DNA of 55,126 nt from Mahella sp. (lineage in GTDB: Bacteria > Bacillota > Clostridia > Mahellales > Mahellaceae): assembly GCF_020054945.1 (NCBI RefSeq), contig NZ_JAIHAU010000007.1:1-55126 (forward strand). Direction: 5' to 3'. A program made the position numbers and the translations under genes. Shown here piece by piece: positions 13,768 to 16,888 of this stretch. Each line of letters opens with the position of its first letter. The stretch's first letter is position 1. The notes beneath the pieces were generated by a model, which was not told the DNA's origin, ran no database searches, and saw only the letters and a program-made list of their open reading frames with translations.

Positions 13768-16491
13768 TCATTTCTGGCCTGTCGCCTGCTTGAGCACATC
13801 CTCGAGCTGTTTCAAATATTCACCGTAGGCGGCCCAGTCTCCGCGTTGCGATGCATCCTTAGCCTGCTGCAGCAGATCATTAGCCTGCCTTATGAGATCC
13901 TGCTGCTGTGGTGTACCGGGAGCCGCAGGCGCCGCAGGCTGCGCTTGTTGTTCTTCTTCTATACCAAATATGCGGTTTAAAGCGGCTTCAAGGTTATCCT
14001 CCATAACCAGCTTATTTTCATAGAACATTATAACCTTCTTGACCTCGGGCAGACTGTTCTCGGTGGCCGAGCGTATATAAAGCGGCTCCACATAAAGCAG
14101 CGAATTCTCTATCGGTATGACCAGCGTATTGCCTCGCACCACTGATGAGCCCTGCTGATTCCACAGCGTTAACTCCTTCGATATGTTGGTATCCTGATCA
14201 ATGGTATATTCGACCTGCATAGGCCCATATACCAGCTTGTCTTTTGGGAATCTGTATACGATAAGCTTACCGTAATCGTCGCCGTCCATGCGCGCAGCCA
14301 TCCACGCCGTCATGTTATCCTTCTTTACCGGCGTAAACGGCACCATTAGCACAAATTCCGCTTTATCCTCTCCCGGCAATTTCATTATTATATATTGCGA
14401 TTCAATCTCCTGTATTTCATTGCCATATTTTTCATTAGCTATATCCCATGCATCTTCGCCGCTGTAAAACACCTGTGGATCAGTCATATGATAACGCCTA
14501 TATATTTCAGCCTGTACATCGAATAGAAGTTGCGGATAACGCAGATTATCCTTAAGACCGGCCGGCATATCATCGGCATCTTTAAACAACTTCGGGAATA
14601 TTCCTTTATACACATCGGCTATGGGATCGGTCTCATCCACGATATAGAAATCGGTTTTGCCATTATATGCGTTTATAATTACTTTAACCGAATTGCGCAT
14701 ATAATTCACGCCCAAATTCATATTATCCGGCTCTGCATACGGATATCTGTCGCTTGTAGTATAAGCATCTATTATCCAATATAGCCTGCCATCGTCGCCT
14801 ATAATGATATACGGGTCATCGTCGTAGCGCAAAAACGGCGCTATCATCCTCACTCTATCAGCTATATCGCGATTTATCAGTATCCTGCTCTCAGCGTTTA
14901 TATCCGATGACAAAAGCAATCTGAAATCCCCTGTATACAGCGTAAACAGCAGCCGATTTGCAAATGACATAGCTATGCCGCTTTCTTCCTGATAGATTGT
15001 TTCCTTATTTTGTTCTCCCATGGGATAATCGAATTCCTTTTGCTTCGTCTTTACTATAACATATTGATCGGTAGATTCGCCGAAGTATATTTCCGGCCTC
15101 TTTATGTCGACGCCATCAGCGTTCTTAGGCGGTATATCCTTTATAACCAACTGCGGTTGTCCACTAGGCGTTACGGCATTCACAGGCGACATAACAACGC
15201 CATAACCGTGTGTATATCTAAGATGCTGATTTATCCACGTCTTAGCATTATCCGGAAGCTTATCGATATTTAGCTCCCTAGGTGATAAAAATACCTCGGT
15301 ATAACGGTTATCCAGCATATAACGATCTATATCTATATCGTTGAATTGATAATACAGCCTTATACCCTGCAATTGATTATATACCTCCAATGCCGGTCTA
15401 TAATCGTTAATCCGTATATTATCTATAGTATCCCTGTTTTCGTTTAGATCCTGAACCGTCAGAGTCTGATCCGCACTAAAATCCTTTTCTTCTATTTTAT
15501 CCAAACCATAAGCCATCTTTGTATACTTTATGTTGTTCTCTATATAAGGCTGTTCTTTCTTAAATTCATTGGCCGATACAATCAGACCTTGAACCACGCC
15601 TCCGACAACAGCCGAAGTTACAAGAAGCGCCAATATAGCCAGAGGAGCCGATGCAGCCCACCATATCTTTTGCCTTATAGCTCCTATAATAAAAACAAAC
15701 GCTCCCGCAACCGATACAATCATAAGTATTCTGTAAAACAGCAGGGTAACGTGAATATCGGTATATCCCGCTCCTACAACCTTGCCGCGCGTAGAATACA
15801 GAAGGTCAAAGGTTTTTAAGTAATAACCGAAAGCCAGCGTAAGAAAGAATATGAAACCGAGCCATGCTATACGCTCTATAGCCGCACGTACTATATCCTT
15901 GTTTGAAACAACCCTAATAACGTTATCCTTCTCGAACAAACGATAAAAGCGCATTTTATCCGACATATACATAAGAGCGTATGCCAGTATTGTAACTATC
16001 GCCAATATAACAGTAAAATTCAATATAAAGCTATAAAGGCTATGTAAAAAAGGTAAACGGAACATATAAAGGCTTAGGTCATGCCCAAAAATCGGATCTT
16101 TTATGCCAAAATCGGATGAATTGATAAACGTGAGCCATTGGGACCATATACCCGAGGATTCGGATAAAGCCACTGTAATAGATATGAACAATAAAGCTAT
16201 GATTATAACAGTATTCAACAAATGAGATTGCCGTTTGGTTAAATCGGCCGCCATATAACGTGCGTAATCGCGCTTAATCATATTGCTATATGCATACAAT
16301 ACAGCAAATACTGCTATAAAAACGGGAATAGCTATTTGTGCCTGCGTTATAAAGCGGGTCATGAATACCGAAAGGTAACCTATGCTGTCGAGCCATTGGT
16401 AGTCCACAAAAAATCCCGTCAAAGCCAGCAATACTATAATAACGGCTATTATTATCGTTATAAGCCATCCTATCCATCGTTTCAGCGTCAT
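13768..16491 (-). CDS. UPF0182 (COG1615) large membrane protein
   Basis: This is a 907-residue protein of the UPF0182 family. The N-terminal third holds about seven transmembrane helices (first at about residues 8-30). A long extracytoplasmic domain begins around residue 270 (NNIKYTKMAYGLDKI, TEVFLSPREL, YTHGYGVVMSPVNAV). The protein ends in a Gln/Ala/Pro-rich tail with EYLKQLEDVLKQ. The family is widespread in Actinobacteria, Cyanobacteria and Clostridia and has no established function. The first plausible start is the ATG of MTLKRWIGW. An upstream extension of the frame would translate a structured repeat and is not credible. This ATG directly follows the hairpin end of a mobile element and has no clear ribosome site, so expression may have been altered by the insertion. 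Confidence 0.85.
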   Translation of the reverse strand: MTLKRWIGWLITIIIAVIIVLLALTGFFVDYQWLDSIGYLSVFMTRFITQAQIAIPVFIAVFAVLYAYSNMIKRDYARYMAADLTKRQSHLLNTVIIIALLFISITVALSESSGIWSQWLTFINSSDFGIKDPIFGHDLSLYMFRLPFLHSLYSFILNFTVILAIVTILAYALMYMSDKMRFYRLFEKDNVIRVVSNKDIVRAAIERIAWLGFIFFLTLAFGYYLKTFDLLYSTRGKVVGAGYTDIHVTLLFYRILMIVSVAGAFVFIIGAIRQKIWWAASAPLAILALLVTSAVVGGVVQGLIVSANEFKKEQPYIENNIKYTKMAYGLDKIEEKDFSADQTLTVQDLNENRDTIDNIRINDYRPALEVYNQLQGIRLYYQFNDIDIDRYMLDNRYTEVFLSPRELNIDKLPDNAKTWINQHLRYTHGYGVVMSPVNAVTPSGQPQLVIKDIPPKNADGVDIKRPEIYFGESTDQYVIVKTKQKEFDYPMGEQNKETIYQEESGIAMSFANRLLFTLYTGDFRLLLSSDINAESRILINRDIADRVRMIAPFLRYDDDPYIIIGDDGRLYWIIDAYTTSDRYPYAEPDNMNLGVNYMRNSVKVIINAYNGKTDFYIVDETDPIADVYKGIFPKLFKDADDMPAGLKDNLRYPQLLFDVQAEIYRRYHMTDPQVFYSGEDAWDIANEKYGNEIQEIESQYIIMKLPGEDKAEFVLMVPFTPVKKDNMTAWMAARMDGDDYGKLIVYRFPKDKLVYGPMQVEYTIDQDTNISKELTLWNQQGSSVVRGNTLVIPIENSLLYVEPLYIRSATENSLPEVKKVIMFYENKLVMEDNLEAALNRIFGIEEEQQAQPAAPAAPGTPQQQDLIRQANDLLQQAKDASQRGDWAAYGEYLKQLEDVLKQATGQK

Positions 16492-16499
16492 CAAAAATT

Positions 16500-16543
16500 G
16501 GCGCAGGAGACTCCATCCTCCGCATGGTGGAGAGGAATGCGCC
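16500..16543 (-). repeat. Right-end hairpin of the omega-RNA element
   Basis: On the minus strand GGCGCA...TGCGCC encloses a second pairing between CTCCA and TGGAG, followed by AATTTTTGATG. The hairpin sits immediately before the UPF0182 start codon. Its form matches the subterminal hairpins that TnpA recognises in IS200/IS605 elements, and the T-run could also make it a weak terminator. Confidence 0.55.
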
Positions 16544-16566
16544 TTTGCCTCCTTTCGTATTTTTAG

Positions 16567-16850
16567 GGGCGCTGTTGCGCCCCTTTCGCCCCGTAAGGGG
16601 CTTGTGACGCCCGGCATGCCGGGTCTCTCCTCGCCAATGTTGGCAGTCAGTACACCCGCATGGCACCGCCCTTACCCATCGGGCTTTTAACCATGCGGTT
16701 GTAGTGGTTAGGACTGGAGAAGCATCCTAACGTACGTTCTTTAACTCTCCTACCAACGTAGTGCTCGCGGCACTTAGGCTGGTCAATCAGGGCTCTTTCA
16801 AGCCCCCGCCTCCATAGGCGGTGGGTTATTGACCCCTTCATCATACCACA
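16567..16850 (-). ncRNA. Multi-hairpin structured RNA, HEARO/omega-RNA-like
   Basis: On the minus strand the order is as follows. GGTCAAT...ATTGACC closes a stem around CCGCC/GGCGG and GGGCT/AGCCC hairpins. Next come GTGC-CGCGA-GCAC, then GTTAGGA...TCCTAAC, then CCGCATGG...CCATGCGG. The palindrome CCCGGCATGCCGGG, GCCCC-TTAC-GGGGC and GGGGCGC/GCGCCCC follow. The closing GGTCA/TTGACC stem followed by a GTTAGGAT hairpin resembles HEARO (IscB omega) RNAs, whose guide lies at the 5' end. The guide would then be the genomic sequence just upstream (about 16850-16870). Family assignment is from memory of the fold. Confidence 0.5.
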
Positions 16851-16888
16851 CTGACTATATTTTACCCCTTACGGCTAATTTATGCAAG

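Follow-up and report, generated by a model that had tools for sequence, protein, structure and literature searches.

The window, a 55,126-nucleotide stretch of a contig from a Mahella sp. draft genome, carries a 342-bp element on its minus strand (16492..16833) that is very probably an ISC element deleted for iscB with its omega-RNA intact. It is best read as a MITE-like, non-autonomous form derived from an ISC (IscB) element, a member of the IS200/IS605 superfamily: an internal deletion took out almost all of iscB and kept both ends and the complete omega-RNA, and the product sits immediately 5' of the ATGA that forms the start of a UPF0182 gene. A sequence-only reading had already described a compact omega-RNA element lacking a nuclease ORF, an origin in an IscB element from which iscB was lost and a position at the 5' end of UPF0182; the full-length HEARO match, the last ~24 iscB codons with the terminal hairpin at the right end, and the insertion directly before the native start codon bear these points out. 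Its extent (16492-16888, about 360 bases) was right in strand and in starting at 16492, and its outer limit is corrected to 16833.

The omega-RNA scaffold and the ends of the element

The HEARO covariance-model search that the sequence-only reading had proposed gave a match of RF02033 to 16619..16833 (minus strand) over model positions 1-211 of 211 (129.6 bits, E 1.3e-26), the only Rfam match within the window. Membership in the family is clear, as the gathering score of 83 bits is exceeded across the whole model. The predicted fold reaches -83.2 kcal/mol, against -67.6 +/- 4.5 for shuffled sequences (z -3.5), with an equally good fold in 1 of 200 shuffles, and two-sided compensatory changes at 25 of the 46 predicted pairs among 16 homologues support a conserved fold. 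The stems named beforehand (GTCAAT/ATTGAC, GTTAGGA/TCCTAAC, CCGCATGG/CCATGCGG and the CCCGGCATGCCGGG palindrome) are each present on the minus strand. On contig C15 of the same genome, an IscB gene is accompanied by an omega-RNA that shares 97% identity with the scaffold. A HEARO match, copies in relatives and a fold more stable than that of shuffles were thus all found, and the absence of these three was what had been named as counting against the earlier reading.

The left end of the element (GTCAATAACC, 16833) coincides with HEARO model position 1, and the right end (...GCGCCAATTTTTG, 16492) is the same as that of a full iscB element on contig C61 and of a further copy on C12; the scarless empty site of the C12 copy in two congeners fixes the ends to the base. 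The scaffold is followed by a spacer of ~50 nt (16566..16618, minus strand) with GC-rich hairpins (the CCCGGCATGCCGGG palindrome at its start, GCCCCTTACGGGGC and GGGGCGCAACAGCGCCCC), part of which corresponds to the iscB 5' leader, and a similar GC-rich CCCGTAAGGGGC stretch lies at the equivalent place in the C15 and C61 elements.

The rest of the element (16492..16565, minus strand) is the 3' coding end of iscB together with the right end, and it closes in a TGA composed of the element's TG and a host A. Positions 16488-16565 are 95% identical to C61:1481-1558, the end of the full element, where the IscB C-terminus reads ...YERRQRRISLHPAEDGVSCANF*. An adjacent iscB gene is absent, the remnant comprising only the last ~24 codons; because the right end retains these codons and the terminal hairpin, the element derives from an IscB element that lost iscB. 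The AGGAGG at 16548-16553 had been taken for a perfect ribosome site with no gene behind it. We rejected a ribosome site with a missing gene because the equivalent bases encode the IscB C-terminus in the C61 element, and AGGAGG is therefore two Arg codons left from iscB. A deletion through the CGAAAGGAG repeat, which occurs in both the iscB leader and the C-terminus, was likewise rejected, as the window bases just before the repeat derive from the coding side. The IS200/IS605-like terminal hairpin stood up: folded as single-stranded DNA, the right end forms a two-part hairpin (16498..16543, minus strand; outer stem GGCGCA/TGCGCC, inner stem CTCCA/TGGAG) of -10.6 kcal/mol (z -2.7), a form common to the window element and the full C61 element and of the subterminal kind found in the IS200-IS605 type.

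Insertion before the UPF0182 start codon

The host gene (13768..16491, minus strand) encodes a UPF0182 protein (PF03699, Pfam E 6e-290) whose native start ATG (16491-16489) lies inside the ATGA target motif. For comparison we used two congeners, G001 (contig = record JASGMM010000001) and G002 (one contig of 3.136 Mb). Their UPF0182 genes are 94-95% identical to that of the window and share the native start MTLKRWIGW..., and the site is empty in both. The congener leader reads AACGAAGGGATGGATGTAATGACGCTG (G002 has GCA for GTA) and the window site reads GATGAAGGG, element, ATGACGCTG; the 9 bp before the ATG in the congeners (ATGGATGTA or ATGGATGCA) are missing, so that the window site falls short of being perfectly scarless. 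A second, truncated copy, on C12, sits at lgt between a GGAG ribosome site and the lgt ATG, and the empty site there in both congeners, GGAGTGATAAG joined directly to ATGATAGATCC, is exactly scarless. Precise insertion without target duplication is therefore exact at lgt, and the window site differs from the congeners by 9 bp.

Comparison of the leaders shows that the insertion parts the native leader and its presumed ribosome site from the UPF0182 ATG. The element itself holds an in-frame ATG at 16617 with GGAGAG upstream, and the ORF 13768-16617 spans 949 aa. UPF0182 may now be translated either from its old ATG in an altered leader or from the ATG at 16617.

Candidate guide and promoter

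The guide of an IscB RNA lies 5' of the omega-RNA scaffold. By this rule the guide is probably the leader stretch directly adjoining the scaffold, TGTGGTATGATGAAGGG (16834 to ~16850, minus strand; ~16 nt), which belongs to the UPF0182 5' leader, and the proposal that it is taken from 16850-16870 was not upheld. Upstream in the same leader lies a promoter-like TTGCAT and TAAAAT pair with 17-nt spacing (16859..16887, minus strand), and both hexamers and the spacing are the same in the leaders of both congeners. A strong consensus promoter was rejected: the consensus scan passes over this pair because the -35 hexamer TTGCAT has only 3 of 6 matches, below the scan's threshold. No terminator was found at the element. 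The omega-RNA is probably transcribed from the host promoter, and an RNA from the leader promoter would start ~18-20 nt before the scaffold, giving a 5' extension the size of a guide.

Within its own genome the guide matches its own locus only, where the next bases are GTCA and not the NTGR motif, and the suggested search for the flanking guide as a target elsewhere, which allowed up to 3 mismatches, returned no target next to an NTGR motif in the assembled genome. In G002 there is one 3-mismatch match, at chance level. The own locus would be spared because GTCA rather than NTGA follows the guide, and since the assembled genome holds no motif-bearing target, guide activity would need a chromosome with the empty site.

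IscB genes and further copies in the same genome

The genome is a 2.16-Mb draft, 86% complete, and the search for iscB, tnpA and further copies that had been suggested found all of them. Besides the window copy there are six further HEARO matches (seven in total). IscB genes lie on C15, C44 and C61 (two), with one more cut by the contig end on C45; the four tested against NCBIfam guided_IscB all score above the cut-off (three at E ~1e-126, the second C61 gene at E 1e-100). The single Y1 TnpA gene lies beside a tnpB-like ORF in a TnpA-TnpB element. The C15 IscB could be aligned with IscB proteins of solved structure, and in our reading of the alignment its RuvC and HNH catalytic residues are kept. 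Because the two omega-RNAs are 97% identical, the C15 IscB should recognise both its own and that of the window. With intact IscB genes elsewhere in the genome, the window omega-RNA could possibly work in trans with a resident IscB.

The C15 element itself (L020 around 6888, G000:C15) interrupts an OmpR-like response-regulator gene directly after GTATGGGGAT, and its right end is lost. Decayed copies are also present: the C12 copy has lost part of its omega-RNA, and a degenerate HEARO copy on C24 (L025, G000:C24 near 18995) is separated by a few hundred bases from a CRISPR array whose repeat is GTTTTTAGCCTACCTATGAGGAATTGAAAC.

Landing at ATGA and at start codons

HEARO is rare in Clostridia (11 of 391 genomes). 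The bases after the right end are ATGA in 21/21 Clostridia elements with a readable right end, a count that is not fully blind: right ends were found first by the common end sequence, with ATGA then following, and for a few weaker ends (G050, G005:C10, C7) ATGA was used as an aid in fixing the final one or two bases. The original HEARO description is said to agree with ATGA at right ends, and ISC transposons, in the account that Kapitonov and colleagues reportedly gave in 2016, insert beside a 4-bp target. IsrB has an NTGA motif and cuts ATGA targets (PMC9581776), with which the ATGA at the right ends would agree as an NTGA-type target motif.

For 11-13 of the 21 elements, the ATG is the start of a host ORF of at least 170 aa without a long upstream open frame, and a ribosome site often directly precedes the element's left end. 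The 21 come from a small number of related families, and not every one is an independent case. The full C61 element, for example, adjoins ATGAATATAAATTGG, the start of another gene. The remaining landings are inside genes or after stops. Of the window's 656 ATGA sites, 13-24 coincide with gene starts, and 56 fall outside ORFs. The excess of start-codon landings is strong against all ATGA sites (p ~4e-11 or smaller) and only modest against the non-coding ones (p ~1e-4 to 0.03, depending on the definition of a start); much of the excess can thus be put down to avoidance of coding sequence. It is suggested that such insertions are tolerated because the target motif contains the start codon, which lets the element enter the leader and leave the gene itself intact.

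Other stand-alone copies that arose by internal deletion occur in G050 (three), G002, G005, G118, G075 and G386. The three omega-RNA-only elements of G050 (C17, C181 and C114; L081, L082 and L093) measure ~327 bp (one 208 bp), two of them with identical omega-RNA, and each lies between a ribosome-site-like leader and ATGAAA; they are a typical MITE-like family. Two species of another Clostridia genus carry an orthologous stand-alone HEARO at the same site (L085 around 3669, G005:C42:29669; L114, G118:C1:319206) in a region where they share 95% identity across 1.8 kb. The guide-sized stretch ahead of the scaffold is the same in both, and a small ORF resembling a membrane protein takes the place of iscB. 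This is possibly a retained or domesticated copy.

In four elements (G000:C61, G005:C1, G118:C3 and G118:C1:944430; L019, L083, L111 and L110) iscB has no stop codon of its own. Its TGA consists of the element's last TG and the A of ATGA and overlaps the host ATG as TGATG, from which translational coupling of iscB to the host gene may reasonably be inferred. In the G001/G002 family the iscB stop lies earlier, so the overlap is not universal, and with iscB gone the coupling is lost in the window copy. We found no description of the start-codon landing or of the split stop codon in the literature searched, which did not include the founding HEARO, ISC and OMEGA papers.

Proposed mechanism and alternatives

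A Y1 transposase acting in trans would have moved the window element. The UPF0182 leader promoter would then transcribe it into an omega-RNA that carries the 3' part of the leader as its guide, and a resident IscB encoded elsewhere would load this RNA. The complex would cut chromosomes with the empty site, where ATGA follows the guide, and leave its own locus uncut; such cutting would favour retention of the element, as proposed for TnpB/IscB elements. Cutting at guide-ATGA and sparing of guide-GTCA would fit selfish maintenance through the resident IscB. We give even odds that the window omega-RNA actually works as a guide.

The main rival, to which we assign a probability a little short of that, is an inert relic, neither expressed as a guide nor mobile, whose fold survives only because the insertion and the iscB deletion are recent. 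The 97% identity to the C15 omega-RNA leaves little time for decay, other copies in the same genome are visibly decayed (C12, C24) and the genome holds no motif-bearing guide target, all of which favour a relic; however, every helix is kept in a full-length HEARO match of 129.6 bits, there is promoter-like sequence close upstream, and the genome supplies IscB. It is unlikely that the element was instead co-opted, without guide function, as a structured 5' leader altering UPF0182 expression through the new start at 16617 and a 949-aa product. The frame open from 16617 and the separation of the native leader from the ATG would suit such a role, but ~42 stop-free codons are not improbable by chance, the congeners have a UPF0182 94-95% identical without the extension, and the leader is not known from any other species. 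That the hairpins arose by chance and are unrelated to HEARO has a negligible probability and was rejected on the Rfam match (E 1e-26), the homologous copies beside iscB and the matching right end.

We offer a broader scheme as tentative and rather doubtful. Start codons would serve as landing sites for ISC/IscB elements and for the stand-alone omega-RNA elements that descend from them; because the ATGA target is then the host start codon, the host promoter and leader would supply transcription and guide. In some full elements, where the target completes the iscB stop, the TGATG overlap might let the interrupted gene be translated by reinitiation, and the window element would be a pared-down form kept in place by an IscB acting in trans. 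Start-codon landing and the split stop codon may deserve wider counting.

Comparison with known systems

The window element is a clear natural case of an RNA-guided transposon that lacks its nuclease and has kept a potentially usable guide RNA, and it can be set against intact nuclease genes and decayed copies as well as the empty sites of sister species. It resembles the HEARO RNA (RF02033), the omega-RNA of IscB (OMEGA) systems, in all 211 model positions, a putative guide 5' of the scaffold and an intact IscB in the genome, and differs in lacking an iscB gene beyond the last ~24 codons. ISC transposons, according to what Kapitonov and colleagues are said to have described in 2016, have an IS605-like terminal hairpin and make no target duplication; the window element shares both, along with the 4-bp target ATGA, but is non-autonomous, without iscB or tnpA, and so comparable to a MITE.

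Stand-alone omega-RNAs able to work with IscB in trans have been reported (Altae-Tran et al. 2021, as cited in PMC9581776). They resemble the window element in having no adjacent nuclease gene and an IscB-encoding genome, whereas for the window element the sequences directly show that it arose by internal deletion, that its site is empty in relatives and that it sits at a start codon. Stand-alone omega-RNAs are thus already known, and the precise landing at a start codon is the instructive part.
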